Positions 7,989 to 25,804 of a DNA stretch of 64,000 nt are shown in pieces (position 1 is the stretch's first letter; every line of letters starts with the position of its first letter). The position numbers and the translations under genes were made by a program. The notes under the pieces are model-generated. The model did not search any database, had not been told where the DNA came from, and saw only the letters and a list, made by a program, of their open reading frames with translations. Source of the DNA: Peterkaempfera bronchialis (GTDB lineage Bacteria; Actinomycetota; Actinomycetes; Streptomycetales; Streptomycetaceae); assembly GCF_003258605.2 (NCBI RefSeq), contig NZ_CP031264.1, positions 2,728,001-2,792,000 on the forward strand, in the 5' to 3' direction.

Positions 7989-8477
7989 TCAGTCCGACGC
8001 GCGTGAAGCCTTTCCCGCCGCGTCCGCGTCGGCGTCCGCCTCCGCGCCCAGGGCCACCTCCTCGTCGCGGGGCAGGAACTGCCCCACCACCCTGACGAAC
8101 ATGTCGCGCCGCTCGGCGGGCACCGCGAGCACCTCCGCCAGCTCCTCCAGCGTCGGGGGCCGGTCCACGTCGACCTCCGGGGCCGGTCCGGCTTCGGGCA
8201 GCCCGATCGGAAGCGGAAGCTCCTCGGCGGTGAGCCGGCCCGAGCGGATGAGCATGTCGCGGACCGGCACCCCAAGAACCCGTGCGAGGCGTCGGGTGGT
8301 CTCCAGGTCGGGCATGCTCTGCCGCTGCAACAGGCGGGTGACGGCGGCGCGGTGCACACCGGCCTCGTCCGCGATCCGGGACTTGCCTCCCCCGCGCGGG
8401 TTGTCGATGTCATATCCGCGCCGACGCATCAGGTCTTCGACCCAGGCCGCGAAGGCGTCCAGTTCATGAGCGGTCAT
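7989..8477 (-). CDS. XRE-like helix-turn-helix regulator of the tail island
   Basis: This 162-residue protein has an N-terminal helix-turn-helix (ADEAGVHRAAVTRLLQRQSM, about residues 36-55) followed by ARVLGVPVRDMLIRSG, as in lambda-repressor/XRE-fold proteins. A C-terminal helical segment (PTLEELAEVLAVP) leads to a short acidic Ala/Asp tail. ATG at 8477 has GGAGGG upstream. It is transcribed divergently from the WhiB gene and the tail genes, the usual place for a phage-type repressor. It probably binds the inverted motifs in the intergenic region 8478-8675 and sets when the island is expressed, which is inference. Confidence 0.8.
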   Translation of the reverse strand: MTAHELDAFAAWVEDLMRRRGYDIDNPRGGGKSRIADEAGVHRAAVTRLLQRQSMPDLETTRRLARVLGVPVRDMLIRSGRLTAEELPLPIGLPEAGPAPEVDVDRPPTLEELAEVLAVPAERRDMFVRVVGQFLPRDEEVALGAEADADADAAGKASRASD

Positions 8478-8517
8478 GGCTGCCGGCTCCCTCCATAGGA
8501 GGGCAAGGATAGCGCGC

Positions 8518-8553
8518 TTGCGCGCACAGAATTATGTGCTAACGAGCACGCAA
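8518..8553. promoter_or_regulatory. Inverted-repeat operator candidate between repressor and tail genes
   Basis: The segment starts TTGCG and ends CGCAA, and contains the perfect inverted repeat GTGCT-AACG-AGCAC at 8536-8549. It lies between the divergent HTH regulator and the WhiB gene. The half-motif TTGCGC...GCAC recurs at 8606 and 9961, ahead of island genes, which suggests a shared regulator site. Confidence 0.45.
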
Positions 8554-8605
8554 CGGGAAGATGGCGCAAAGGTGCGACAAAGAAGCAGGATCTACCTTCA
8601 CTGGT

Positions 8606-8620
8606 TGCGCACGCGCACGC
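8606..8620 (+). promoter_or_regulatory. TTGCGC-type motif, copy upstream of the WhiB-like gene
   Basis: TTGCGCACGCGCACG lies 56 nt before the WhiB-like start and differs at one base from the copy at 9961. It may be an operator or an extended -35 element of the promoter for the first island transcript. Confidence 0.4.
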
Positions 8621-8675
8621 ACCATGGGAACGTGTGTGCCCGCACGATCTGCACCCGCCGCCCCCGGAGATCCCC

Positions 8676-8957
8676 ATGCCCGCCTCCGCCGCACCCCTGC
8701 CGGACGACGCCGGCTTCTTCAGCTGGCAGGCCACCGCCGCCTGCGCAGGGCTCCCGCCGCACGTCGTGTTCGCCAGACGCCCCCAGGACGCCGCCCCCGC
8801 GCTGCGCGCCTGCGCCGCCTGCCTCGTCCAGCGCGAGTGCGAAGAGGTCGTCGCTCCGGCCGACACCTGGTTCGACGGCGTCAGCTCCGGTCGGCTGTGG
8901 CGCAACGGCCGACCTGTCGCCACCCTCTCCGACCTGCACAGGAGCCCACGTGACTGA
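8676..8957 (+). CDS. WhiB-like iron-sulfur protein, variant
   Basis: The protein has 93 residues. The cysteine pattern (one Cys in ACAGLPPH, then CAACLVQREC) gives four cysteines spaced as in Wbl proteins, which hold a [4Fe-4S] cluster and act as transcription cofactors. The usual turn motif GVWGG is replaced by GVSSGRLW, and there is no strongly basic C-terminal DNA-binding tail. ATG at 8676 has GGAG eight bases upstream; an earlier GTG at 8634 is less likely. It overlaps the next gene by 8 nt. Wbl proteins are also found in actinophages. Here it probably controls the island, but this is inferred from position. Confidence 0.8.
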   Translation: MPASAAPLPDDAGFFSWQATAACAGLPPHVVFARRPQDAAPALRACAACLVQRECEEVVAPADTWFDGVSSGRLWRNGRPVATLSDLHRSPRD

Positions 8958-9699
8958 CCGGCCCACCATGGACGCCGCGCTGTGGATCGACATACTGATC
9001 CGCCAGTTCCCGGAGCTCACCGAAGAGCTGGCACCCGGCTCCAGGACGGCCGGCGACGCCCCGGCCGCTGCCCCCGGAGTCAGCCGCCACCAGGGCGAAC
9101 GCCTCCGGCAGGAGCGCCGCGACGCCCTGCTACTCGAACAGCACCACGGCCTCACCGCCCCCGGCCACAGCGCCGCTCCGCTGCGGCTGCACATCTCCGA
9201 CACCATCCGCGACATCACCGACGGCGTACTGGAACTGGAGGAAGCGGTGCGCTCCCGGCTCGGCCTGCCCCAGCCGGGCCGCGCCCGGGTCCCGCAGCGG
9301 CTGCGGCGCATCGCCGCCCTGCTGGACGACATCGCCGCGCACCCCGTGCTCGCCGCGCACGTCCGCGACGAGACCCGCCGGATGGCCCGCCGCTGCGCAC
9401 GGGCGCTCGGCGACACCGAGTCGGTGGTACGGATCTCCGGCCGCTGCCCGTGGTGCGACTCGGTGTCGCTGCGGGCCTTCCCCGCCCGCCGCGCGATCCT
9501 CTGCGTCAACCCGGCCTGCCGGTGCGCGGACCCGGACTGCGGCTGCCGGGACGACCCCGCGTACCGCCACCTCTGGCCGGAGGACGGGTGGGCGCGGCTG
9601 GCCGACGCCACCGGCCACTCGATGGACGAGATCAGCGCCGCCGTACAGAGCGACCTCCCCCCGTCCGCACCGAACGCCACCCGGAGGGCGTCCTCGTGA
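8950..9699 (+). CDS. Hypothetical protein with cysteine-rich C-terminal cluster
   Basis: The product has 249 residues and starts at a GTG that overlaps the WhiB-like stop. The N-terminal 150 residues are helical and charged (LRQERRDALLLEQHHGL; LRRIAALLDDIAAHP). A cysteine cluster follows: CPWCDS, then 19 residues later CVNPACRCADPDCGC, a likely zinc-binding knuckle. The last part (WARLADATGHSMDEISAAV) resembles a small helix-turn-helix. I do not recognise the family. It sits in an overlapping string with the WhiB-like and small HTH genes, so it is probably part of the island's regulatory or early unit rather than a structural protein. Confidence 0.7.
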   Translation: MTDRPTMDAALWIDILIRQFPELTEELAPGSRTAGDAPAAAPGVSRHQGERLRQERRDALLLEQHHGLTAPGHSAAPLRLHISDTIRDITDGVLELEEAVRSRLGLPQPGRARVPQRLRRIAALLDDIAAHPVLAAHVRDETRRMARRCARALGDTESVVRISGRCPWCDSVSLRAFPARRAILCVNPACRCADPDCGCRDDPAYRHLWPEDGWARLADATGHSMDEISAAVQSDLPPSAPNATRRASS

Positions 9700-10019
9700 A
9701 GCTGCCGACCCTGATCCCCGGAGCGCTGGCCGCCCGGGAGGTCGACGTGGCACCGGCCACCATCCGCAAGTGGGTCCAGCTGGGCCACCTCTCCCCGGCC
9801 GGGAAGGCGGGCCGCGCCCAGCTCTTCCGCCTGGAGGACGTCTTCGCCGCCGAACGCGCCACCCGCCGCAGGCCCTCCCCTGAGCCGCCTCCCCCGCTCC
9901 CCCGCCACCGCCCCGTCGCGCCGCCCAGCGCGATGGGGCGGTCCGCGTTTTCCCTGCAAGTTGCGCGCGCGCACGATCTCAATCACACTAGGTGCAGCGG
10001 CGGAGCTGTGCCCGGGTGA
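9696..10019 (+). CDS. Small MerR/excisionase-like helix-turn-helix protein
   Basis: This 107-residue protein starts at a GTG in a GTGA overlap with the preceding stop. Residues about 8-50 (LAAREVDVAPATIRKWVQLG, then LFRLEDVFAAE) match the winged-helix 'helix-turn-helix 17'/MerR style of small DNA-binding proteins, where the recognition helix reads PATIRKW. The remainder is Pro/Arg-rich and probably disordered. Its end overlaps a TTGCGC-type motif at 9961. It could be a recombination directionality factor left from an ancestral prophage or an activator of the tail transcript; the sequence does not decide. Confidence 0.65.
   Translation: MKLPTLIPGALAAREVDVAPATIRKWVQLGHLSPAGKAGRAQLFRLEDVFAAERATRRRPSPEPPPPLPRHRPVAPPSAMGRSAFSLQVARAHDLNHTRCSGGAVPG
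9961..9975 (+). promoter_or_regulatory. TTGCGC-type motif ahead of the structural tail genes
   Basis: TTGCGCGCGCGCACG is followed by the only AT-rich patch nearby (ATCTCAATCACACTAGG) and lies 160 nt before the tail terminator gene. It matches the motif at 8606, so the early and structural genes may share one regulator. Confidence 0.4.
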
Positions 10020-10134
10020 CCGGTCACAGCCCCGCCGTTCGCCGTCGGGCGGCACCGCCGCTGCCTCCGCTCCCTTCCCGGCGCTGCCGCCCGACTTCCC
10101 AGCCCCCGCCCGTCAGCCATGAGGTGGAACCGTC

Positions 10135-10542
10135 ATGACCACTCCCCCGAGTGCCTTCCCCGACGTCGAGGCGCTGGTCGTCGACGTCCTCCGAGCCGAT
10201 CCCGGCCTGGCCACGGCCACCGTCTCCGTCGACCCGCCCAGCGGCTTCGACGGCACTCAGCGGGCCGTCCTCGTCTCCCGCCGAGGCGGCGCCTGGACCG
10301 GCGACCGCCATGTCGACCAGCCGCTGATCGAGCTGGAGGTCTACGGGCCGGACAAGGCCACCGCCCACATCCTGGCCAACGCGGCGCGGCGCGCACTGCT
10401 CGCCGCGATGGACCACAGCTACGGCGGCACGACCGTCACCGATGTGACGGAGCAGGACGGCCCGCGCTGGATGCCCGACTACCTCTACCGAGCGGCCAAC
10501 CGCTATGTGTGCGTCCTCGCGGTCTCCCTGAGCGTCTTCTGA
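10135..10542 (+). CDS. Phage tail terminator-like protein
   Basis: The 135-residue product resembles actinophage tail terminator proteins, which cap the head-proximal end of the tail tube and fix its length. It has an N-terminal helix (PDVEALVVDVLRADPGL), a central beta strand set with LIELEVYGPDKATAHILA, a helix (AARRALLAAM), and a terminal strand (VCVLAVSLSVF). Position directly before the tube gene is canonical. GAGGTGG precedes the ATG at 10135. In a particle without a head this protein would close the tube end. Assignment is by fold pattern and synteny, not by conserved catalytic residues. Confidence 0.72.
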   Translation: MTTPPSAFPDVEALVVDVLRADPGLATATVSVDPPSGFDGTQRAVLVSRRGGAWTGDRHVDQPLIELEVYGPDKATAHILANAARRALLAAMDHSYGGTTVTDVTEQDGPRWMPDYLYRAANRYVCVLAVSLSVF

Positions 10543-10658
10543 CCGCACCGCCGACGCACCGCACCCCCACAGACCAGGCCCTGCCACCGGCGGGGCCTTT
10601 GCCGTATCCGCACCGAGCGGACCACGGCAGCCGTGTCACCCCAACCCAAGGAGAATCC

Positions 10659-11234
10659 ATGGCAGGCAACAACTCGTCCGAGATCCGCGTCGCCGGCTCC
10701 GGCCGCATCCTGGTGGCCGCGGCCGGTGCGGAGGCGCCGACCGACTTCACCACCGACTGGGACCCCGCCGTCTGGACGGACCTCGGCTACACCTCCACCG
10801 ACGGTGTCACCTTCGGCAAGAAGGACAAGCTCGACCCGATCGAGACCTGGCAGTCCATCAGCCCGGCCCGCTACGTCTACGAGAGCCGGGACCTGACACT
10901 GAAGTTCTCGCTGCTCCAGTTCAACGAGGACACGCTGCCGTTCTTCATGGGCGGCAGCACCGTCGCCACGGTGGACGCCGCGAACAGCGTCTACTCCTAC
11001 GACGTGCTGGACGACCCGCAGGTCGACGAGCGGGCGCTCGGCCTGGAGTTCACCGACAGCGCCAGCGTCAGCTACCGCTTCGTCATCCCGCGCGGCCTGG
11101 TCACCGCCTCCGACGACATCAAGCTGGTCCGCAAGTCCGCCGCGATGCTCGGCGTCACCTTCACGGCGGTGTCGTCCGGCGACAGCACCCCGCTGGCCAC
11201 CTTCGTGATGAAGGACCCGGCCTACGCCTCCTGA
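10659..11234 (+). CDS. Major tail (tube) protein
   Basis: This 191-residue protein has the composition and layout of siphovirus tube subunits: a flexible start (MAGNNSSEIRVAGSGRILVA), acidic mid-region, alternating beta strands (YESRDLTLKFSLLQF; VSYRFVIPRGLVT) and a C-terminal strand ending VTFTAV...ATFVMKDPAYAS. It would polymerise in stacked hexameric rings around the tape-measure protein. The ATG at 10659 follows AAGGAG. It lies between the terminator and the assembly chaperone, the conserved place for this gene. It should be the most abundant protein of any particle made by the island. Confidence 0.85.
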   Translation: MAGNNSSEIRVAGSGRILVAAAGAEAPTDFTTDWDPAVWTDLGYTSTDGVTFGKKDKLDPIETWQSISPARYVYESRDLTLKFSLLQFNEDTLPFFMGGSTVATVDAANSVYSYDVLDDPQVDERALGLEFTDSASVSYRFVIPRGLVTASDDIKLVRKSAAMLGVTFTAVSSGDSTPLATFVMKDPAYAS

Positions 11235-11317
11235 CCCACCGGCGAACCGCGGGGCGGCGGCCACACCCGCCGCCCCGCACCACCCACCCACCCGTCCCCC
11301 TCCCCGGAAGGAACCCC

Positions 11318-11608
11318 ATGCCCCGGTTCGACATCAACGCCGCCCGCGCCCAGCGCCTGGAGGCCCTCGGCCGCACCTGGTCCTTCGACCTGGACGGCGA
11401 CACCTTCGAGCTCCCCACCGAGCTCTCCCGCACCACGGCCAAGGCGCTGCGCAGGCTGGACGACAACGACATCGACGGCCTGCTCCGGCTGCTCCTCGGC
11501 GAGCAGCAGTTCGAGCGCTTCAACCGCCACGAGGTCACCATGCAGGACGTGGCCGCGGTACTGGAGGCGTACGGCAAGGAGACCGGGCTCGGCCTGGGGG
11601 AAGGCTGA
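11318..11608 (+). CDS. Tail assembly chaperone, short form (gpG-like)
   Basis: The 96-residue protein begins MPRFDINAARAQRLEALG and has a predicted beta/helix core (DTFELPTELSRTTAKALRRL) and a C-terminal helix (QDVAAVLEAYGKETG). Chaperones of this kind hold the tape-measure protein during tube assembly and are absent from the finished tail. The gene ends with a TGA at 11606 just after a run of five G and AA. The -1 frame remains open for another 430 nt, giving the long form. GGAAGG precedes the ATG at 11318. Confidence 0.85.
   Translation: MPRFDINAARAQRLEALGRTWSFDLDGDTFELPTELSRTTAKALRRLDDNDIDGLLRLLLGEQQFERFNRHEVTMQDVAAVLEAYGKETGLGLGEG
11596..11602 (+). promoter_or_regulatory. Probable -1 programmed frameshift site
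   Basis: GGGGGAA is read in frame 0 as (CT)G GGG GAA, two codons before the short-form stop TGA. Slipping one base back re-pairs GGG on GGG in the P site. The downstream -1 frame continues as AGG CTG AGC CTC. G-tetrads and pentads followed by A are found at tail chaperone frameshift sites of many actinophages. Confidence 0.75.
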
Positions 11609-12036
11609 GCCTCGACGCGTTCGCCGAAGAACACGCCGAGGCTCTCGAAGCCGACCTGATCCGCTTCTACGGCGTGGACCTGCTCGACTGGCACCGTGGC
11701 CGGCTCTCCAGCCGCCGGCTCGCGGTGCTGGTCAAGCATCTGCCACGGGAGAGCGCGATCACCCGCGAACTCCAGGGCGAGGGCGCCGACTGGACGGTCG
11801 GCGACTACCTGCTGGCCGCTGCGGTGGACCACCTGGCGGCGGCCAACTGGATGTTCGCCTGCGTCAACACCGCCGAGGACTCCGAACCGCCCGAGCCTCC
11901 CGCTCCGGTCCCCCGCCCCGGCGACCCGCCGGAGCAGGAAGCGGACGAGGCGAACGAGGGGGAGCAGGCGGGCGACCTCGCGACCGCGTCTGCGGACCGC
12001 CCCTCGGCCGCCGAACTGGTCCGCTTCTTCACCTGA
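11596..12036 (+). CDS. Tail assembly chaperone frameshift extension (T domain of gpGT)
   Basis: This frame is read only after the -1 shift; it has no start codon of its own that fits. The fused product is about 239 residues. The extension reads RLSLDAFAEEHAEALEADL, then RFYGVDLLDWHRGRL, RLAVLVKHLPRES and an acidic Pro/Glu tail ending ELVRFFT. The RFYGVDLLDWH / VLVKHLP pattern is typical of the second chaperone frame in actinophages. The long form recruits the tape-measure protein, the short form coats it. An independent start at ATG 11674 exists, but it would remove the conserved N-terminal part. Confidence 0.8.
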   Translation, partial: GGRLSLDAFAEEHAEALEADLIRFYGVDLLDWHRGRLSSRRLAVLVKHLPRESAITRELQGEGADWTVGDYLLAAAVDHLAAANWMFACVNTAEDSEPPEPPAPVPRPGDPPEQEADEANEGEQAGDLATASADRPSAAELVRFFT

Positions 12037-12072
12037 CGGACCACCACCACCCTCCCGGTGGGGCGCGGCCGT

Positions 12073-12720
12073 TCAGTCGGCCGCGTCCCCCGGGGTCTCA
12101 CCGGCGGGCCGGGGCTTGCGGGTGGGCGGGGCCAGTCGGGGGATCGTCGGGGACTTCGACCGGCGGCTCTTCGGTGACAGCGACGGCTTCACCGACGGCG
12201 TACGGGGCGGGGCGCCGCGCTGCGGTGCCCGCTGCTCCTCCGCCGCCTCCCCGGCGTCGGCACCGCCGGTGGGGACCCCGTTCGGCTCCTCCAGCCGGCG
12301 TCCCGCCGGAAAAGGGATGACATCGCCAGGACCGCCGACCACCCGCAGTGGCCGCCACCGGCCGAGCCACCCCTCCCACCGCGCGGCGGCTATGTGCTGC
12401 CGGTGCTCCTCCGCCGCGTCCTGCCACCCGCCGGCGTAGGCCGCAGCCTCCCTGCGGTCGTACTCCTCACGCGACATGACGACCACATCGCCGGGGTCGT
12501 ACTGCTCCAGCAGCCGGCCGAACCGGGCCATCAGCCGCGGCAGTTCCTCCCCCGGAGGAAGCGGATCGAGGTCGAGGTGCTGCTCACCGTCCGTCTCGTG
12601 GTCCGGCGATACCTCCCGCTCGCCTTCCCGCTCCCGGCTTCTGCCCCCGCTCAGCTCAATCACCCTTGCCTGGATCGTCCCGTGGCCACATGCATCCCGT
12701 TCATCCAGGACCTCACGCAT
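12073..12720 (-). CDS. Hypothetical protein encoded against the tail operon
   Basis: The 215-residue product is on the opposite strand within the tail module. Its middle contains EEYDRREAAAYAGGWQDAAEEHR, a motif shared with the small plus-strand gene at 12924. The C-terminal third is Pro/Arg/Lys-rich and disordered-looking (SLSPKSRRSKSPTIPRLAPP). There is no signal peptide or membrane segment. The start at ATG 12720 is not well supported by a ribosome site, and a shorter form is possible. I do not recognise the family. Location and orientation suggest an accessory (moron-like) gene with its own promoter. Confidence 0.6.
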   Translation of the reverse strand: MREVLDERDACGHGTIQARVIELSGGRSREREGEREVSPDHETDGEQHLDLDPLPPGEELPRLMARFGRLLEQYDPGDVVVMSREEYDRREAAAYAGGWQDAAEEHRQHIAAARWEGWLGRWRPLRVVGGPGDVIPFPAGRRLEEPNGVPTGGADAGEAAEEQRAPQRGAPPRTPSVKPSLSPKSRRSKSPTIPRLAPPTRKPRPAGETPGDAAD

Positions 12721-12923
12721 GCCTGCCCCCGCTGCGGCGGGCCATCCGGCACGGACCCGTCCGCCCCCGGATCACTGTCGGCCTATCGGCCTGACCTGCG
12801 ATTTTGCGGGTGAGAACAGGACTCTGCAGTTTACCCCACCCAGCTGATCCCTCCTCAGCCGCCCGACCCCACAACCCCTCGCCGATCCAGCACAGCCACA
12901 CCGAGAGAGCGGTGAACCGCACG

Positions 12924-13145
12924 ATGACCGAGCAGACCCAGCAGACGACCGGCCCGGCACCGGACTCCCTGCTGCGCACCCGCCGCACCGAACTCGACGC
13001 CCGCGAGGCCCGCGCCTACGCCAGCGGCTGGCAGGACGCGATGGAGGCCCTCCAGCAGCATCCCCGGAGCGGTCGGCCAAGGGCTTGGAGAGTCGCAGAC
13101 GGCATGAACCGATCCCGACCCGCCCGGCAAGCAGAAGCAAGGTGA
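12924..13145 (+). CDS. Small protein sharing a REAxAYAxGWQDA motif with its neighbour
   Basis: The product has 73 residues. Residues about 18-43 (RRTELDAREARAYASGWQDA, followed by MEAL) match the centre of the divergent gene at 12073-12720. The C-terminus is basic. A GTG at 12912 with GAGAGAGCG upstream would add four residues. It ends 9 nt before the next gene. The duplicated motif on opposite strands suggests an old duplication. No function is known. Confidence 0.55.
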   Translation: MTEQTQQTTGPAPDSLLRTRRTELDAREARAYASGWQDAMEALQQHPRSGRPRAWRVADGMNRSRPARQAEAR

Positions 13146-13154
13146 TGAACGCAG

Positions 13155-13847
13155 ATGACGGACAAGGAAAAAGACCTCGCCAATGAGATCGATACCCTCA
13201 GGAAAGACCTGTCGACATCACGCCTGAAAATCAACGGGCTGATCGCACAGCAGGCGAGCCACAACACCAGTATAAGCAATATCAGCGAAAGAATACCGCT
13301 GGAACCCGGAAAGCTGGCGACCCAGGAATTCGTCGAGAAGAAGACCGCACCACCGGGCGAACCGGTGGGCACCTGGAAGCCCTTGGGCGGCTCGACGCTC
13401 ACCGGAGTCTCCGGCGGGTCACACTTCCTTGCCGGAATCCCCGAATGGGGACTGTTCAAGCTGGGGCTCCCCTCTCTCTTCAATCTTGAGAAACCCATTG
13501 AAGGGTTTCTCGAGAAGCGCGGGATAGGACTCAAGTCAAACGGGTTCGTCTGGAAGCTCAACGAGGAGGAGAAAAAGGCGAGGGAGGAGCAGAGCAGTAT
13601 CCCGAGGCGAGTCGGGGGCCTGGAGAACGACCTCAGGACGATCAGAGAGAAGCTCGGCAGGACCGGAGATGCCCTGGATCGGGCGAGGAGAGATCCCGAC
13701 AACCGATTCATCGGGAGCCCGGCGCAGGCAAGGAGAGCCTCCGGGGGCGTCGACAGTGTGTCGCCGACAGTCAGGGGAATAGCCCCGGAAATCAAGGCTC
13801 TTCGGTCCGCCGTCAATGAGCTCGCCCAGGTCCTGGGCGGTCTGTGA
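13155..13847 (+). CDS. Low-GC coiled-coil protein in the cassette before the tape measures
   Basis: The 230-residue product has a clear N-terminal coiled coil (KEKDLANEIDTLRKDLSTSR), a Gly/Pro-rich centre (GGSTLTGVSGGSHFLAGIPE), and C-terminal coiled segments (VGGLENDLRTIREKLGR; IKALRSAVNELAQVLGGL). Base composition is visibly poorer in GC than in all neighbours and uses A/T-ending codons (AAA, AAT, ATA), a sign of recent transfer. It lies directly before the first tape-measure gene, so it may be a tail fibre, a tape-measure-associated protein or a cargo. Nothing in the sequence marks an enzyme or toxin fold. Confidence 0.65.
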   Translation: MTDKEKDLANEIDTLRKDLSTSRLKINGLIAQQASHNTSISNISERIPLEPGKLATQEFVEKKTAPPGEPVGTWKPLGGSTLTGVSGGSHFLAGIPEWGLFKLGLPSLFNLEKPIEGFLEKRGIGLKSNGFVWKLNEEEKKAREEQSSIPRRVGGLENDLRTIREKLGRTGDALDRARRDPDNRFIGSPAQARRASGGVDSVSPTVRGIAPEIKALRSAVNELAQVLGGL

Positions 13848-13893
13848 CAGGGCGCCGCCGAGCGGCCATCCGAAAGAACAGGAAGTGGCGCAT

Positions 13894-14958
13894 ATGTCTC
13901 TTGTTGCAGCGCTAGGCAGGTCTTCAACGGCTCTGGAGCGGTTCAAGTCCCAGGCGGAAGCCGCCGGGAAGGCCGCGAAGGGGGTAGGTGACAAGGCCAA
14001 GAACGGCGATGGCGACCTCAAGAAGTTCAAGGGCTCGGCGAAGGACTCCGCGAAGGAGCTGAAGGGGCTCCAGACCGCCGCCGATCAGGCGGAGAAGTCG
14101 GTCGGGAAGGCCGGGAAGACCGGCCAGGGCAGTGGCGGGCTGCTGGGGAAGTTCAAGTCGGGGGCGGACGGCGCCGGGAAGGGGATGAGCGGCCTGAACA
14201 AGTCGATGAAGGGCAACCTCATCGGCGTGCTGCTCGGCCTGCTGGCTCCATTGATCGCCATGGTCGTCGACATGGCGATGCAGTCCAAGACCATGCAGAA
14301 GATCATGAAGATCGCGTTCGACGCCATCCAGACCGCGATCAGCACGACCATGAAGGTCGTCGGCCCGATCATGAAGAAGGCCGGCGATCTGATCAAGGGG
14401 ATCTTCAAGGGCATCATGACCGCCATCTCGCCGGTCATCGACTGGATCAGGACGAAGATTCCCGCCGCCTTCCAGAAGGTCAGGGACAAGCTGTCCAGCG
14501 CCTGGGGCGGACTCCAGGCCATCGCCAAGGAGAAGTTCGATGCGCTCATCGGTCCGGTCAAGGGGCCGCTGAACACCATCATCGATGTCATCAACTCAGC
14601 CATCGGCAAGCTCAACGGCATCAAGGTGACGATCCCCGGCTGGGTGCCGTTCGTCGGCGGAAAGACGTTCGGGGTCAGCCTGCCGACCATCCCCAGGCTG
14701 GCCGAGGGCGGCCTGGTCATGCCCCGGTCGGGCGGCGTGCCCGCGATCCTGGCCGAAGCCGGTGAGGCCGAGGCGGTGCTGCCGCTGAGCAAGCTCGACC
14801 AGCTGCTGACGCGTACCGCCGTCCAGGCACGGCTGGCCGGCGCGGGCGCCGCCGGGGTCGGGACCGGTTTCCACATCGAGAACTACTACGCCGCCTCCGA
14901 CAGCAGTGCCCAGCAGACCGCCGACGCGCTGACGTTCCTGTCGAAGGCGCGCGGATGA
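13894..14958 (+). CDS. Short tape-measure protein 1
   Basis: The 354-residue product starts at ATG 13894 behind GGAAG. The N-terminal part is Lys/Ala/Gly-rich and helical (KSQAEAAGKAAKGVGDKAKN). A hydrophobic stretch (NLIGVLLGLLAPLIAMVVDM) lies at about residue 110. The C-terminus shows the tape-measure signature IPRLAEGGLVMPRSGG followed by LAEAGEAEAVLPLSKLD. Tape measures set tail length at roughly 1.5 angstrom per residue, so this protein would give a tail near 50 nm, much shorter than normal siphovirus tails. Its stop overlaps the next start (ATGA). Length and the second paralog are unusual. Confidence 0.82.
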   Translation: MSLVAALGRSSTALERFKSQAEAAGKAAKGVGDKAKNGDGDLKKFKGSAKDSAKELKGLQTAADQAEKSVGKAGKTGQGSGGLLGKFKSGADGAGKGMSGLNKSMKGNLIGVLLGLLAPLIAMVVDMAMQSKTMQKIMKIAFDAIQTAISTTMKVVGPIMKKAGDLIKGIFKGIMTAISPVIDWIRTKIPAAFQKVRDKLSSAWGGLQAIAKEKFDALIGPVKGPLNTIIDVINSAIGKLNGIKVTIPGWVPFVGGKTFGVSLPTIPRLAEGGLVMPRSGGVPAILAEAGEAEAVLPLSKLDQLLTRTAVQARLAGAGAAGVGTGFHIENYYAASDSSAQQTADALTFLSKARG

Positions 14959-16073
14959 GTACCCCGGCGGATCCGCTCGCCGGGGCGTCAGAACCCCTGA
15001 GACGCCTCAGCAGCCGGAGCGGGCAGGCCACCCGGACACTGCGGAACGCGCTTTCCGGGATCAGGGACGCGGCAGCCGCCGCCGACCGCATCAAGGACGC
15101 CGCCGACCAGAGCGGCATCCCCCTGCGCGACGCCCAGTCGAAGGCGGAGGCCGCCGACCGCTCGCTGACCCGGGCCGGACGCAGCGCTTCGGGTGCCGCC
15201 ACCGGCATCCGGTCCGCAGCCGGCGGCGCCAAGGGCGCCAAGGGGGCCCTGGGCAAGCTGAAATCCGGGGTCGGCGGCGTCACCTCGATGCTCGGCGCAC
15301 TCGGCACCGGAACCGGCCCCCTCGCGAAGCTGATGGGCGTCTTCGGCGTGGCGCTGACCGCCGGCTCCCTGGCGATGACCGCGGTGAACGTGGCCATGCG
15401 GGCCAACCCGCTGGGCTTCGCCCTCGGGCTGCTGGTGCCGATCCTCGCCTATCTGATCGACCTCGCGCTGAGCTCCGAGACCGGCCAGCGGATCATCCAG
15501 CAGGTCTTCGGCCAGACGGCGAAGTACCTCAGTGCCGCCTTCACGGCCATCGGTCCGTTGATCGAGCCCCTGGGAGGGATGGTCTCCAGCGCGTGGAACC
15601 GCCTCATGGACGCGGTGGGGCCCGTGAAGAGGTGGATCACCGAAGACATCCCGGGGGCCTTCAAGCGGGTCAAGGACGCCATGACCCGCGCCCTCGGCGG
15701 CATGGGGGGCTTCATCACCAGCGGGCTACAGGCATTCCTCGGCGTGCTCAAGGGCCCGCTCAGCGGCCTGATCGGCTTCACCAACTGGGTGATCGACGGT
15801 CTCAACTCCCTCAGCTTCTCCGCCCTCGGCAAGAAGTTCGGCGTCCATCTGACGAAGATCCCGATGCTCGCCGAGGGCGGTATCGCCCTGCCCGGCACCG
15901 CACGGCAGCCCGGCCGAGTCCTGCCGCTGGACCGCCTCGGCGGACGGCCGGCGGTCCGCCGCGCCCACCGGACGGCCGCCCCCACCCGCATCCGGGACTA
16001 CCACGAGAGCCCCGCCACGGGCGCCCGGGGCACCGCCGAGGACCTGCTCTTCCTGGCAACCGCTCACATATGA
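14955..16073 (+). CDS. Short tape-measure protein 2 (tandem paralog)
   Basis: This 372-residue product repeats the plan of its neighbour: an Ala/Arg/Lys helical N-terminus (SSRSGQATRTLRNALSGI), a hydrophobic segment (GFALGLLVPILAYLIDLAL) near residue 160, and the C-terminal signature KIPMLAEGGIALPGTA. Both proteins also share a KxFGV-x-L step just before that signature. It begins within the ATGA overlap of the first gene. Two tape measures in tandem could give two tail lengths, pack side by side, or supply a membrane-channel component; which one acts cannot be told here. Confidence 0.78.
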   Translation: MSTPADPLAGASEPLRRLSSRSGQATRTLRNALSGIRDAAAAADRIKDAADQSGIPLRDAQSKAEAADRSLTRAGRSASGAATGIRSAAGGAKGAKGALGKLKSGVGGVTSMLGALGTGTGPLAKLMGVFGVALTAGSLAMTAVNVAMRANPLGFALGLLVPILAYLIDLALSSETGQRIIQQVFGQTAKYLSAAFTAIGPLIEPLGGMVSSAWNRLMDAVGPVKRWITEDIPGAFKRVKDAMTRALGGMGGFITSGLQAFLGVLKGPLSGLIGFTNWVIDGLNSLSFSALGKKFGVHLTKIPMLAEGGIALPGTARQPGRVLPLDRLGGRPAVRRAHRTAAPTRIRDYHESPATGARGTAEDLLFLATAHI

Positions 16074-16090
16074 GACGAGGTGACGGCCCC

Positions 16091-17023
16091 ATGGCCGAGA
16101 GCATCAGCACCTTCACCCGAGACGACCCACCCGGCTCACTCATCACCCGCGACGGGCAGATGCAGTGGGCCGGACTGCTGATCGGCCCCGGTACCCCGTA
16201 CCGGATCGACCGGCAGGGCATCACCGGCTGGGAGGACCTCCCCGACATCGACCTGAGCGACGCCGAACGGCCCACCGGCCATGGCGCCTGGCCCGGCGCC
16301 GGCTATGCCAAGTCGCGCAAGGTCGGCGGGCAGATCTGGCTGCTGCCCCAGCCCGACCCCGACAACCCCGACACCGCCGAGGCGGCTCTGGCCACCGTAC
16401 GGATGCTGCGTCAGGCCCTGGCGCAGCAGGACGAGGAGCGCTGGCTCGCCATCCGGCTGCACGGCGAGACCCTGGCCGTACGGGCCCGGGTCAACCAGCG
16501 TGTCCTCACCAGTGACCGGCAGTTCGCCACCCAGGGTGTGGCCAAGGCGACCGTGCAGTGGCTGGCCTCCGACCCTCGCCGCTATCTGACCACCCCGCAG
16601 TCCACCTCGACCGGCGCCCCGGTGTGGGAGAGCGGCCTGACCTGGCCGCTGACCTGGCCGCTGTACTGGGGCGAGGCGGCGAGCACCGGCGACGTGGCGG
16701 TGGACAACCGCGGGTCGGCCCCCACCCATCCGGTGATCACCTTCCGGGGGCCGTGCAGCAATCCCTCGTTGACCGAGCGGACCAGCGGTCAGCGGCTGCG
16801 GTACGAGATCGACCTGGGCGCCGACGAGGAGCTGGTCGTCGACACGGCGGCCGGCACCGTCACCCTCAACGGCACCGCCGCACGGCGTCACACCGCGGCG
16901 TCGGACAGCAGCCCGGAGGAGCTGTTCACCTTCGCTCCCGGACGGTCGGAGCTGTCCTTCCGACCCGGGCAGGCGGACGCCGGGGCCGAGGTGTCCGTCA
17001 GTTGGCGCTCTGCGGAGTGGTGA
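16091..17023 (+). CDS. Distal tail (Dit-like) protein
   Basis: The 310-residue product lies immediately after the tape-measure genes, the canonical place of the distal tail protein that forms the ring joining tube and baseplate. An N-terminal beta-rich domain (QMQWAGLLIGPGTPYRIDRQ) is followed by a segment with a helix (LATVRMLRQALAQQDEERW) and a central Trp-rich linker (SGLTWPLTWPLYWGEA). The C-terminal domain resembles a galectin-like beta sandwich (VITFRGPCSNPSLTE; ELVVDTAAGTVTLNGTA). This layout fits siphovirus-type tail components of actinophages. ATG at 16091 follows GAGGTGA. Confidence 0.75.
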   Translation: MAESISTFTRDDPPGSLITRDGQMQWAGLLIGPGTPYRIDRQGITGWEDLPDIDLSDAERPTGHGAWPGAGYAKSRKVGGQIWLLPQPDPDNPDTAEAALATVRMLRQALAQQDEERWLAIRLHGETLAVRARVNQRVLTSDRQFATQGVAKATVQWLASDPRRYLTTPQSTSTGAPVWESGLTWPLTWPLYWGEAASTGDVAVDNRGSAPTHPVITFRGPCSNPSLTERTSGQRLRYEIDLGADEELVVDTAAGTVTLNGTAARRHTAASDSSPEELFTFAPGRSELSFRPGQADAGAEVSVSWRSAEW

Positions 17024-17109
17024 CCGCCGCGCACCGGGCCCGCATCCGCTGATCCCACCCGGACGACCATCCGTATCCCCCGCTCCCCCTCATCCGAAGG
17101 AGAACCACC

Positions 17110-18210
17110 ATGACCGTACGCAGCGCATGGCTGACCGCGACCGGCCAGACCCGCGAGGACACCCGCCTCACCCCGCTCGGGGCGGTGACCCCGGTGAACA
17201 CCGTCCAGGGCCAGTCCGGCATCCTGCCCGGATCGTCGGAGGGCCGCAGCCGGGTCTCCGGCTTCCAGCTGAGCGGTACTTCGGCGCTGAGCGCCACCAT
17301 GTCCCCGGGTCGGGCCGTGATCCAGGGCCTGGGCACCCAGGGCGCGTACCCGGTGACCCTCGCCGAGAACGAGACGCTCACCTTCAGCGCCGGCCACCCG
17401 CAGTTCGCCCGGATCGACCTGGTCTGCCTGCGGGTCTACGACGATCTGTACGACAGCTCCAACTCCGGTCGCACCGAGGCTGTGATCGAGGTCGTCGAGG
17501 GCAAGGCGGAGACCGCTCCCACCGCGCCCGCCACCCCGGACCTGGCGCTGCCGCTGTACCGGGTGACCGTCCCGGCCGGGGCTTCGGCCGGCAGCGGCGG
17601 CATCCCCTGGACCACCGCACTCACCGACCTGCGCACCGCCACCGTCGCGGTCGGCGGCATCCTGCCGGTCTACAACAACACCGCCAATGGCGCCTATGTG
17701 GGCCAGTACCGGGACTCCGCCAACGGGTTGCAGCGCTGGGACGGCTCGGCCTGGACCGCGTACCCGGCGGTGCCCGGCTGGCAGAACTGGACGCCGACCT
17801 GGACCACCGTCACCGGCAACGCCAAGCCGTCGTTCGGCAACGCCACCCTGAACTGCCGCTATATCCAGATGGGCCCGACGGTCCATCTCATCTTCAACAT
17901 CGCCTTCGGCACCACCACCAATTTCGGCGCCGGTGCGACGGGTGCCGACAACTGGGCGTTCGCCCTGCCCGTCGCCGCCACGTCGGCGCTCCAGTGCATC
18001 GGCTTCGCCGAACTCACCTACTCCGGGGGCGGACGTGTCGTGGGGCGCCTCCACTGCTCCAGCAAGGACGCCTTCGGGATCGAGGTCAGCACGGGCAGGC
18101 CCGACGCGGTCGCCGTGACCAACAACGGCCTCATCGACGCCATCACCCCCTGGACCTGGGCGAACACCCACGCCATCCGTGGCACGGCCACCTATGAGGT
18201 CGCCGGATGA
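17110..18210 (+). CDS. Baseplate/receptor-binding-type minor tail protein
   Basis: The 366-residue product starts at ATG 17110 behind AAGGAG. The first 180 residues resemble upper-baseplate/tail-spike attachment domains (GFQLSGTSALSATMSPGRAV; LPLYRVTVPAGASAGS). The C-terminal 150 residues (PGWQNWTPTWTTVTGNAKPS; YIQMGPTVHLIFNIAFGTTT) form a beta-rich head of the kind that ends phage fibres and binds cell-surface polymers. In a tailocin this is the protein that decides which bacteria are hit. Its stop overlaps the next start by four bases. The receptor cannot be predicted. Confidence 0.65.
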   Translation: MTVRSAWLTATGQTREDTRLTPLGAVTPVNTVQGQSGILPGSSEGRSRVSGFQLSGTSALSATMSPGRAVIQGLGTQGAYPVTLAENETLTFSAGHPQFARIDLVCLRVYDDLYDSSNSGRTEAVIEVVEGKAETAPTAPATPDLALPLYRVTVPAGASAGSGGIPWTTALTDLRTATVAVGGILPVYNNTANGAYVGQYRDSANGLQRWDGSAWTAYPAVPGWQNWTPTWTTVTGNAKPSFGNATLNCRYIQMGPTVHLIFNIAFGTTTNFGAGATGADNWAFALPVAATSALQCIGFAELTYSGGGRVVGRLHCSSKDAFGIEVSTGRPDAVAVTNNGLIDAITPWTWANTHAIRGTATYEVAG

Positions 18211-19307
18211 CGACACCGGCCGGCACCCCCTACCGCGCGATCTTCTGCGATCTGCGCACCGACCAGACCATCGACGTCCTGCCGCTCCAGGACGTCGGCT
18301 TCGACGACTACCTCGGCAAGCCCGGCTCGCTGTCCGGCACCATCCCGGTCCCCAACGCCGCACTCGCCGAGCGGGTCCGCCGGATCGAGGAGGGCCGTAC
18401 CTCCGTCTACCTGGAGCGGGGCGGCGACCTGTGGTGGGGCGGCATCATCTGGACGAGCACCCTGCAGAGCAGCGACCGGGGCGTGCTGACGCTGGGCATC
18501 CAGGCAGCCACCTTCGACTCCTACGCGAACCGCCGCCTGATCCGCAGGTACCTCCCGTACAAGCACATCGAACAACTGGAGCTGGTGCGGACGCTGTGGC
18601 GGGAGTTGCAGTCCGACAAGGGCGGCGACATCGGCGTCAGCTACGGCGACGAGACCTCCGACGTGTTCCGGGACGCCTCCTGGCTGGACGGCGACGAGAC
18701 CTCCTACTACGACGCGATCACCCAGCTCGCAGCCATGGAGGACGGCTTTGAGCACTGGATCGCCGTCTACCGCGATCCGGCCACCGGTCGGCGGGTCCGC
18801 CGGCTGAGGCTCGGCAGCACGCGGATCCAGAACGGGGCGACCGACCTGGTGCTGGACCGGCCCGGTGCGGTGCTGTCGTACTCCTTCCCGCGCGATGCGA
18901 CCCGTGGCGGCACCACGGCGCGGGCGCGCGGCGACGCCGTCGACGACGGGCAGAGCGAGTCCCGGCCGGTGTTCTCGGAGGAGAAGGTCGCCACCGACCT
19001 GATCGACGGCGGCTACCCCCGGGTCGACCTGTCCGCCGACTACACCGGGGTCACCGATGCCCGCACGCTCGCCTCGCTGGCCGCCGCAACGCTGGCGGCG
19101 GCCCGGGGCGCGGTGGTGATCCCCGCCGTCACCATCCGGCTGGACGACATGGTGCCCCCCACGCTGCTGGGTCAGACCGTGCGCATCCGGATCACCGACG
19201 AGTGGTTCCAGGGCCTGGACGCCCGCTACCGGATCGTCGGCCTCAAAGTCAGCCCGTCGCAGCGGGGCCGCGCGGACACCGCCGAGCTCTATCTGGAGGA
19301 TGCCTGA
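18207..19307 (+). CDS. Baseplate hub protein, ReqiPepy6 gp37-like
   Basis: The 366-residue product matches the pattern of the Siphovirus ReqiPepy6 Gp37-like family: an N-terminal half with a beta-barrel (IDVLPLQDVGFDDYLGKPGS; LERGGDLWWGGIIWTS), a middle helix set (YKHIEQLELVRTLWRELQ), and a C-terminal half of repeated strands (TIRLDDMVPPTLLGQTVRIR; RYRIVGLKVSPSQ). These proteins form the central hub below the distal tail ring. It overlaps both neighbours by a few bases (ATGA and TGATG), which indicates coupled translation. No lysozyme motif is visible, so wall digestion is left to the amidase downstream. Confidence 0.72.
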   Translation: MTTPAGTPYRAIFCDLRTDQTIDVLPLQDVGFDDYLGKPGSLSGTIPVPNAALAERVRRIEEGRTSVYLERGGDLWWGGIIWTSTLQSSDRGVLTLGIQAATFDSYANRRLIRRYLPYKHIEQLELVRTLWRELQSDKGGDIGVSYGDETSDVFRDASWLDGDETSYYDAITQLAAMEDGFEHWIAVYRDPATGRRVRRLRLGSTRIQNGATDLVLDRPGAVLSYSFPRDATRGGTTARARGDAVDDGQSESRPVFSEEKVATDLIDGGYPRVDLSADYTGVTDARTLASLAAATLAAARGAVVIPAVTIRLDDMVPPTLLGQTVRIRITDEWFQGLDARYRIVGLKVSPSQRGRADTAELYLEDA

Positions 19308-19852
19308 TGGCCGCCCTGCCCGAGGACATCATCGACCGGCTGGACGCCATGGAACGCCGGCTCCAGCGGCTGTCCACCGCGGTGGTCACCCGGCCTGCGG
19401 GCGGCCGGACCGGTACCACGGTGCAGCGGCTGTACGACGCCAAGGGCCATGAGGTGGTCTCCGGCGACCCCGTCATCGGGGGCCTGGGCCGCCCCTGGCT
19501 GGCGATGCTGCCGCCGCAGGACAGCGCCTCGGCCCGCTGGCCGCAGACCACCGCCACGGTCTGGACGACCATCGCGCGCTCCTTCAACCCGGTCTGGCAG
19601 CCGGGGCTGCGGCTGTACATGGCGACCTCGGTCAGCTCCGGCTGCACCGGTGCGGTCCGGGTCCTGCTCAACGGCACCCCGTGGGGCGACCCCGTCGCGG
19701 CCGGCAGCACCTTCGACCGCACCGGCCCGGTCGCCGCCGACTTCAACGCCGTCTTCGGCACCCTGCTGCGGGTCGAGGTGCAGGCGCAGGTCACCGACGG
19801 CACCGGGACGGTCCACGCCCAGCCGCAGCTGATGTACGGCACCCAGATCTGA
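19307..19852 (+). CDS. Minor tail protein with N-terminal coiled coil
   Basis: The 181-residue product begins in a TGATG overlap with the hub gene. Residues 1-25 form a short coiled coil (DIIDRLDAMERRLQRLST). The rest is beta-rich (LRLYMATSVSSGCTGAVRVL; FGTLLRVEVQAQV), as in trimeric baseplate appendages. It is likely an accessory fibre or baseplate component. Family unknown; the call rests on position and fold pattern. Confidence 0.6.
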   Translation: MAALPEDIIDRLDAMERRLQRLSTAVVTRPAGGRTGTTVQRLYDAKGHEVVSGDPVIGGLGRPWLAMLPPQDSASARWPQTTATVWTTIARSFNPVWQPGLRLYMATSVSSGCTGAVRVLLNGTPWGDPVAAGSTFDRTGPVAADFNAVFGTLLRVEVQAQVTDGTGTVHAQPQLMYGTQI

Positions 19853-19867
19853 GCAGAGAGGCACCGT

Positions 19868-20269
19868 ATGGAGATCGACACCGCCCAGCCCTGGGGCATC
19901 GCCCTCGACTACGCCGGCCGGGCCACCGTGGTGGAGCGCGGCCACAGCATCGACGTCCGGGTCTATGACACGACCTTCGGAGCGCCGCTGGAGCCGGACC
20001 CCGCCACCGGCGACTACCCGGTGGTGTACGTGACCGCCCAGTTCAACGAGGCCGGAGCGCTCGGCTCGGTACCGCGCGGCTTCGGCCAGGTGATCCTCAC
20101 CCCGGCCGGAGGCCGCCCGGTGGGCCCCGACCGGGAGGCCGTGCGGTCGGCGGTGGCGGCTGCCCTCGTCGACTTCGACGACCGGGTGGCGGCCTACCTG
20201 GCGCTCTGCACCTGCTGGACGGCGGGCGGTCCGGCGCCCGGCGACGACCACGCGGAGGAGGGTGGCTGA
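19868..20269 (+). CDS. Small tail-module protein of unknown function
   Basis: The 133-residue product lies between the minor tail protein and the amidase. The first half is beta-rich (GRATVVERGHSIDVRVYDTT) with the conserved-looking segment YPVVYVTAQFNEAGA; the second half has a helix (REAVRSAVAAALVDFDDRVA) and an acidic tail. Two cysteines lie in LALCTCWTA. An AGAGAGG site precedes the ATG. It may be a baseplate accessory or chaperone. I do not recognise the family. Confidence 0.5.
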   Translation: MEIDTAQPWGIALDYAGRATVVERGHSIDVRVYDTTFGAPLEPDPATGDYPVVYVTAQFNEAGALGSVPRGFGQVILTPAGGRPVGPDREAVRSAVAAALVDFDDRVAAYLALCTCWTAGGPAPGDDHAEEGG

Positions 20270-20367
20270 CCCCGCGCCCCCGCCGCACCGCAACCGCTCG
20301 CCCCGTGCCCCCAGGGCCGGGGCGTCCGCATGTCAGGAGAGACCGGAGAGACTGGAGCATCCCACCC

Positions 20368-21258
20368 ATGGCGAACCCGCTGTCCGCCGACGCCCTCGTC
20401 ACCGCGCTCCGGGACGAGGGCGTCACAGTCGTCGAACACGACGGCTGGCGCACCCACAACCGCAACCACAAGGGCCCCTGGGGCCCGGTCAACGGCGTGG
20501 TGATCCATCACACCGTCAGCGAGGGCACCGCCCACTCCGTGGCCATGTGCCACGACGGCTACGCCGACCTGCCCGGCCCGCTCTGCCATGGGGTCGTCGC
20601 CAAGGACGGCACCGTGCACCTGGTCGGCAACGGTCGGGCCAACCACGCCGGGAGCGGCGACCCGGACGTCCTCCAGGCCGTCATCGCCGAGCGCGACCCG
20701 CTGCCCGCACCCGTCCGGAACACCGTGGACGGCAATCCGCACTTCTACGGGTTCGAGTGCGTGAACCTCGGCGACGGCAAGGACCCCTGGCCCGAGGCCC
20801 AGCTCGAAGCCATCGCGCGGGTCTCCGCCGCGATCTGCCGCGCGCACGGCTGGCACGCCGCCAGCGTCATCGGACACAAGGAGTGGACCAACACCAAGAT
20901 CGACCCGCGTGGCTTCGGCATGGCCGAGATGCGCGCTCGGATCGCCGCGCGCCTCGCGGCCCCGGCGGCTCCGGCAGCCCCGGCAGCCGGTGCCCCGGCC
21001 GCACCCCGCTACCAGCCGTACCCGGGGGCGGCGTGGTTCGCCGGGCAGCCCCGGTCGGAGATCGTCACCGCCGTGGGCCGCCGGCTGGTGGCCGAGGGCT
21101 GCTCCGCATACACCGCGGGGCCGGGCCCGCAGTGGACCGAGGCCGACCGCCGCAGCTATGCCAACTGGCAGCGCAAGCTCGGGTATCGCGGTGCGGACGC
21201 CGACGGCGTGCCCGGCCGCGCCTCCTGGGAGGCGCTGAAGGTGCCGTACACCCCGTGA
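20368..21258 (+). CDS. N-acetylmuramoyl-L-alanine amidase (endolysin)
   Basis: The 296-residue enzyme would cleave the amide between muramic acid and the stem peptide. The amidase_2 (T7-lysozyme-like, zinc) fold is shown by VVIHHTVSEG (His47/His48), YGFECVNLGDGKDPWPEAQL and the second His/Lys in VIGHKEWTNTKIDPRGF. An Ala/Pro linker (AAPAAPAAPAAGAPAAP) leads to a C-terminal peptidoglycan-binding-like domain (RRSYANWQRKLGYRGADADG...PGRASWEALK). There is no signal peptide, so release would depend on the two membrane proteins encoded next, as in phage lysis cassettes. ATG at 20368 lies 10 nt after GGAG. Confidence 0.88.
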   Translation: MANPLSADALVTALRDEGVTVVEHDGWRTHNRNHKGPWGPVNGVVIHHTVSEGTAHSVAMCHDGYADLPGPLCHGVVAKDGTVHLVGNGRANHAGSGDPDVLQAVIAERDPLPAPVRNTVDGNPHFYGFECVNLGDGKDPWPEAQLEAIARVSAAICRAHGWHAASVIGHKEWTNTKIDPRGFGMAEMRARIAARLAAPAAPAAPAAGAPAAPRYQPYPGAAWFAGQPRSEIVTAVGRRLVAEGCSAYTAGPGPQWTEADRRSYANWQRKLGYRGADADGVPGRASWEALKVPYTP

Positions 21259-21292
21259 CCCGCTCCTCGCCCCCGCCGACGAAAGACCTTCC

Positions 21293-21565
21293 ATGTCACC
21301 AGCCACCAAGCATTCCCTGCGCACCGTCATCCAGACCGCCGTCTCGCTCTGCCTGCTGCTGCCGGCGGTCATCGATACGGCGGACCTCCCGGGCTCCCTG
21401 CCCTGGGCCACCGGGGCCCTGGCCGTGGCCGGCTGCCTCGCCCGGGTGATGGCGCTGCCCGGCGTCCAGGCCCTGCTGCCGTCCTGGTTGAGCACCGAGG
21501 CATCCCCCAACGGCGACGACGCGCTGCGGGCGCTCGCCGACGCCCCGGAAGGAGGCGGTGCATGA
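21293..21565 (+). CDS. Holin-like small membrane protein
   Basis: The 90-residue protein has two hydrophobic segments (VIQTAVSLCLLLPAVID and WATGALAVAGCLARVMAL) and a short charged C-terminus. Size, topology and position directly after the amidase fit a holin that permeabilises the membrane to let the endolysin out. Its stop overlaps the start of the next gene (ATGA). Confidence 0.65.
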   Translation: MSPATKHSLRTVIQTAVSLCLLLPAVIDTADLPGSLPWATGALAVAGCLARVMALPGVQALLPSWLSTEASPNGDDALRALADAPEGGGA

Positions 21566-21825
21566 GCGAACCGCCCCTCTCCGACCCGGCCGCCGTCGCG
21601 CTGGAACTGGAGCGGCTACGCGGCACCGTCGAGGCCGGTTTCGCCCGGATCGACGGCGCCCTGGCCCTGCTGGTCCAGCGCAGTGACCAGACCGACAGAC
21701 GGCTCGCCGACCATGAGAGCCGACTGGGCACCCTGGAGCGGGCCCGCTGGCCGCTGGCCAGCGTGGGCGCCCTGGCCGCCGTCGCCACGGTCACGGCGGC
21801 GGTCTGGGAACTGACCGCCCGGTGA
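21562..21825 (+). CDS. Small coiled-coil protein with C-terminal membrane anchor
   Basis: The 87-residue product has an N-terminal coiled coil (LELERLRGTVEAGFARID; RSDQTDRRLADHESRLGT) and one C-terminal membrane segment (LASVGALAAVATVTAAVWEL). Proteins of this shape accompany holins in actinophage lysis cassettes, for example XhlA-like or second holin components. It is the last gene of the island, and the terminator begins 4 nt after its stop. Confidence 0.6.
   Translation: MSEPPLSDPAAVALELERLRGTVEAGFARIDGALALLVQRSDQTDRRLADHESRLGTLERARWPLASVGALAAVATVTAAVWELTAR

Positions 21826-21886: not shown

Positions 21887-25804
<3,918 letters not shown>

Follow-up and report, generated by a model that had tools for sequence, protein, structure and literature searches.

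A conserved GGGGGAA heptamer and downstream hairpin at a predicted -1 frameshift junction in a headless tail-gene locus of Peterkaempfera bronchialis

Gene content of the locus

The window, a stretch of 64,000 nucleotides from Peterkaempfera bronchialis (contig NZ_CP031264.1, positions 2,728,001 to 2,792,000), contains a tail-gene locus at 7989-21825 (Table 1). The locus is characterized by a set of regulators at its left edge, a complete non-contractile tail module and a terminal cassette with an amidase: the tail module comprises the terminator, the tube protein, the assembly chaperones, the tape measures, Dit and the tip proteins. The two tape-measure-like proteins are short paralogs. Many of the homologous loci have two tandem tape measures and others seemingly one; one of the copies could be cargo or effector-like, as in the reported tape-measure-related effectors of Streptomyces contractile systems.

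Three further ORFs of the locus deserve mention. Two of them, at 12073-12720 (minus strand) and about 12924-13145 (plus strand), have no assigned function and lie in opposite orientation; both carry an AYAxGWQDA motif, and over 47 bases they are 83% identical. For the former, relatives are found antisense at varied positions in many loci (47 sequences matched), and it is possibly a cargo or immunity gene. The third, at 13155-13847, is an orphan ORF between the chaperone and the tape measure with a lower GC3 (0.74), which was matched in only 4 of the searched sequences, a count that includes copies of the window; it looks like recent cargo.

Table 1. Features of the tail-gene locus and of its chaperone junction, in window coordinates
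Feature	Position	Strand	Evidence
XRE-type repressor, left edge	7989-8477	-	PF01381 2.6e-7; phrog_3949 transcriptional repressor 9.3e-16
WhiB-like regulator	8634-8957	+	PF02467 1.1e-5
MerR-like helix-turn-helix protein	9753-10019	+	phrog_2474 3.3e-10
Tail terminator	10135-10542	+	phrog_123 4.4e-23
Tail tube (major tail) protein	10659-11234	+	PF25681 Phage_TTP_17 7e-60
gpG-like tail assembly chaperone, short frame, 96 aa	11318-11608	+	phrog_10551 3.3e-26; phrog_5010 1.7e-8
SD-like AAGGAG, 14 nt 5' of the heptamer, possible stimulator (putative role)	11576-11581	+	sequence; spacing range of PMC5009743
Slippery heptamer G GGG GAA	11596-11602	+	sequence; same in 105/105 distinct homologous junctions
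gpT-like half, -1 frame, predicted part of a 239-aa GT fusion	11602-12036	+	phrog_5813 3.8e-30 and others; phage joined chaperones
Predicted stimulatory hairpin, 11607-11622 with 11629-11644; core common to homologs 11609-11622 with 11629-11642	11607-11644	+	folding; paired cells in homologs
Short tape-measure-like protein 1; ORF may start at 13816	13894-14958	+	phrog_3981 1.3e-30
Short tape-measure-like protein 2, paralog of 1	14955-16073	+	phrog_3981 2.1e-28; 33% identity to protein 1, E 8e-40
Distal tail protein (Dit)	16088-17023	+	PF22768 SPP1_Dit 4.3e-11; phrog_5577 7e-80
Virion structural / tail-tip protein	17110-18210	+	phrog_3398 3.9e-65; phrog_35449 minor tail protein 1.3e-5
Minor tail (tip) protein	18207-19307	+	phrog_1885 1.9e-63
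N-acetylmuramoyl-L-alanine amidase (endolysin)	20305-21258	+	PF01510 Amidase_2 1.9e-24
Small hydrophobic protein, holin candidate (from its place after the amidase)	21293-21565	+	phrog_4316 5.5e-22, family of unknown function
Small protein with hydrophobic C-terminus, cassette end	21562-21825	+	phrog_5225 8.2e-27, family of unknown function

The chaperone junction and its two frames

The short chaperone frame has the 3' end ...CTG GGG GAA GGC TGA, in which a single codon (GGC) stands between the end of the slippery heptamer and the TGA at 11606-11608. The -1 frame is open from 11212 to a TGA at 12034-12036 and thus extends for about 430 nt past the slip, encoding both RFYGVDLLDWH and VLVKHLP; its first ATG, GTG or TTG is the GTG at 11674, which lies within the conserved domain. 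A conceptual GT fusion read across the junction has 239 aa. A preliminary description of this DNA had placed the heptamer two codons before the short-frame stop, a trivial difference of wording, and had reported the length of the -1 frame and both of its peptide motifs; these observations hold in the sequence.

Two features were considered as evidence for a shift and dropped: the openness of the -1 frame, given that the +1 frame runs without a stop still further, as far as 12318; and the copy number of GGGGGAA, of which there are 4 in the window against about 11 in shuffled sequences. As this DNA is GC-rich, the heptamer and the open frame are each unconvincing when taken alone. What carries the junction beyond chance is the homology of both halves to tail assembly chaperones, together with the presence of the heptamer at the same codons in every distinct homologous junction.

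In long fused-chaperone profiles the match of the T frame falls in the second half, which is where the T domain sits, and the closest phage matches of this frame are annotated tail assembly chaperones of Arthrobacter, Curtobacterium, Microbacterium, Gordonia, Mycobacterium and Streptomyces phages. Its earlier assignment as an actinophage-type second chaperone half is borne out. For the G half, no phage homolog was found at 1e-5. Three of those phage relatives also have a tail terminator gene, a major tail protein gene, a joined chaperone and a tape measure in this order, and, as expected of a G/GT pair, the chaperone gene of the window stands between the genes for the tail tube and for the tape measures. 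The pN/pS ratio is about 0.55 for both halves, a weak indication given that the method is biased under extreme codon usage.

Conservation of the junction across homologous loci

At E <= 1e-8 the T half is matched in 99 of 395 genomes of the family, with E below 1e-43 in 58 of these. Similarity to the T half was the means of collecting the homologous loci, so that homologs without this half would be missed; 80 loci came from named genomes, in a set that overlaps with the 395-genome one. A -1 step leads from G into T in 112 of 113 loci, and the sole exception (L011) has a frame break inside G with the heptamer still in place. GGGGGAA occurs at the same position in all 105 distinct junctions, which form 59, 23 and 7 clusters at 95, 90 and 85% identity, respectively. 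Fixation of GGG GAA is not a matter of codon preference, since in the tail genes of this genome GGG makes up only 19.5% of the Gly codons and GAA only 12.1% of the Glu codons. Three loci (L015, L076 and L077) have TCA or TCG in place of the zero-frame TGA that follows the heptamer, which extends the short frame by about seven codons; they retain both heptamer and hairpin.

These data bear on an alternative reading of the frame break, as an error of sequencing or as a mutation that turned the gene of a decaying prophage into a pseudogene. The locus is devoid of head genes, as a decayed prophage might be. Recurrence of the same junction in 105 distinct sequences from many species, and a tail module order that is syntenic across loci, nevertheless leave this explanation scarcely credible.

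A second alternative is that T is a separate gene with an independent start, for example at GTG 11674, reached by reinitiation after the G stop. This GTG is in frame, and mechanical ORF calling does start an ORF there. However, a start at this codon would leave out 24 codons at the beginning of the T domain, among them many that are nearly invariant; no ribosome-binding site is obvious in the preceding stretch, GATCCGCTTCTACGGC; and the TGA is not overlapped by any start codon. A search of the homologs for an independent start of the second frame, an issue raised in the preliminary description, recovered no common one near the junction: almost all of them are without a start codon there, and eight loci have only a GTG inside G. 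An independent start of T would, moreover, leave both the invariant heptamer and the hairpin unexplained, and we consider it highly improbable.

The downstream hairpin and flanking elements

The hairpin predicted downstream of the heptamer begins 4-6 nt 3' of it, with a minimum free energy of -24 kcal/mol and a z-score of -3.24. Over 54 distinct sequences, 94.9% of the cells for its 13 core pairs are paired, as against 30-47% when the partner strand is slid, and RNAalifold recovers most of the same core. Eight of the pairs are invariant; only one shows changes on both sides, covarying from UA to CG (75 and 28 of the 105 sequences, plus one UG and one CA). Since relatedness inflates covariation, this covariation, between codons 6 and 9, was compared with the behavior of a control codon and traced over a phylogeny. 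In a tree from which the covarying columns had been left out, there were 5-6 changes, with about 3.3 of 4 independent pairs changing together and none oppositely, numbers too small for significance; the control Glu codon displayed no tendency to change together.

Synonymous change is suppressed over the heptamer and the stem: the five fourfold or sixfold degenerate codons in this region use one codon in 97-100% of the sequences, compared to a median of 71% at 68 others (p = 0.00013).

With five G and then AA at the junction, RNA polymerase slippage on the G run is another alternative, in which a mixed pool of mRNAs would give rise to the fusion. Five G is a short run for transcriptional slippage, and the invariance of the AA, the frame register and the placement of the hairpin at ribosomal spacing all fit slippage by the ribosome better; hence, we regard a transcriptional origin of the fusion as very unlikely.

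Upstream of the heptamer, the two codons that make up the AAGGAG element are the commonest in the homologs though not universal; the published spacing for SD-like stimulation of a -1 shift is 9-14 nt (PMC5009743). Separately, a GGGCUC 5' of the slip could pair with a GAGCCU at the foot of the hairpin (11585-11614), forming an alternative structure that might modulate the shift. G codons 90, 92 and 93, which lie in this region of alternative pairing, are also unusually fixed.

A model for expression of the chaperone pair

The programmed -1 frameshift proposed in the preliminary description is strongly supported by an invariant heptamer, a conserved hairpin, the suppression of synonymous change and, in nearly all homologs, a second frame without a start near the junction. 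We thus interpret the junction, on sequence evidence and with high confidence, as a probable programmed -1 ribosomal frameshift that would give a G/GT chaperone pair. Under this model most ribosomes would terminate gpG at the TGA, and a minority would pause at G GGG GAA owing to the hairpin, probably helped by the upstream AAGGAG. Two-tRNA re-pairing one base back would then place the Gly tRNA reading GGG on GGG again and tRNA-Glu on GGA via a G:U pair, and the shifted ribosomes would enter the T domain to produce the fusion. By analogy with lambda, G would coat the tape measure and GT would recruit tail tube subunits: in that phage the tape measure and the tube protein are acted on by gpG and gpGT in a 30:1 ratio (PMC5009743). 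A frameshift device of this kind is textbook from lambda G/GT, and GGGGGAA is an already documented slip motif of actinophages, being the 'fivetwo' motif of about a thousand SEA-PHAGES actinophage shift genes, with G:U re-pairing of tRNA-Glu with GGA (PMC10885494).

Chromosomal position and lack of head genes

The order regulators, terminator, tube, chaperone and tape measure is common to many of the loci. In the window the locus is followed by rpoC (21887-25804, minus strand). Across 28 genomes that were compared, 14 carry the locus between rpsL and rpoC, always convergent with rpoC; in these carriers the rpsL-rpoC distance is about 15.6-23.5 kb, as opposed to 0.7-1.7 kb in three genomes without a match. 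In one locus (L089) rpsL and fusA directly precede the regulators, with about 3.3 kb from rpsL to the tail terminator. Related loci are also situated elsewhere, as in L100 and L101, whose neighbors are genes of metabolism or of other cellular functions.

The search for head and packaging genes covered four families, and portal (PF04860 and PF05133), TerL (PF03354) and the HK97 capsid (PF05065) have no match anywhere in the whole genome. It might still be that the tail locus belongs to an intact phage, a satellite or a gene transfer agent with its head genes elsewhere. Unrelated capsids would be missed by a search confined to these four families, and the locus has kept a tail terminator, which in phages closes the tail for head joining. 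Against this, beyond the lack of matches, the sampled homologous loci are flanked by host genes and the place next to rpoC is common to 14 genomes; we therefore judge a head encoded elsewhere to be unlikely, if less so than the alternatives to ribosomal frameshifting considered above.

As the locus has tail and tip genes, an amidase endolysin with candidate partners in lysis, and no head genes, a free non-contractile tail particle is its likeliest product. From its gene content we accordingly favor, with moderate confidence, a domesticated, F-type-tailocin-like locus. That the tails are still assembled, as the preliminary description had argued from the intact frameshift, is a reasonable but indirect reading, and the syntenic headless tail locus across many species strengthens it.

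Relationship to known systems

The lambda slip heptamer is GGGAAAG. In both lambda and the present locus there is a short G frame with a slip near its end, a T domain in the -1 frame and a chaperone gene that follows the one for the major tail protein and precedes the tape measure (PMC5009743); the present junction differs in having GGGGGAA and a conserved downstream hairpin, and in lying in a locus without head genes. The joined chaperones of SEA-PHAGES actinophages are alike in the 'fivetwo' heptamer class (PMC10885494), the gene order and the homologous T domain; unlike the locus described here, they belong to complete phages, and the G half here has no match among phages at 1e-5. In three phage relatives of the T domain, GGGAAAC is found just before the stop, that is, a heptamer different from that of the window at the same position.

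The F-type tailocins, namely F-pyocin and the Listeria monocin, likewise lack head genes and have non-contractile tail genes; to their lysis genes would correspond the amidase and the holin candidate of the present locus. The locus is distinguished from them by being actinobacterial, by its rpsL-rpoC site, by its two short paralogous tape measures and by its WhiB-like and XRE regulators. The Streptomyces phage tail-like particles or contractile injection systems are also encoded by phage-tail-derived clusters conserved in Streptomyces (PMC8910223); in contrast to them, the tail-tip genes here are of the Dit-type siphovirus kind, and none for a sheath was found in the locus. We found only contractile systems, and no non-contractile Streptomyces tailocin, in the literature searched; most subscription journals and all bioRxiv preprints lay outside this search, and novelty is hence weakly supported.

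Biological implications

More interesting than the textbook shift itself is its strict retention where head genes are lacking, in a tail locus that often occupies the same chromosomal site. Invariance of the heptamer across many species would mark the headless tail locus as being under selection for tail assembly rather than in decay, and the junction, being compact, conserved and high in GC, would serve as a test case for slippage on GGGGGAA with a hairpin. Judging by the strong matches in the family genomes, the candidate non-contractile tail particle may be widespread in Streptomyces and its relatives. We give about an even chance to a broader proposal: that Streptomyces-type bacteria possess an undescribed, chromosomally fixed, headless non-contractile tail machine, often located at rpsL-rpoC and with two paralogous short tape measures, whose assembly ratio would be set by a lineage-specific GGGGGAA-plus-hairpin frameshift that is selected in the absence of phage head genes. 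The retention of the same signal in dozens of headless, tail-gene-bearing Streptomyces-type bacteria suggests that they may still build these tails for their own use.
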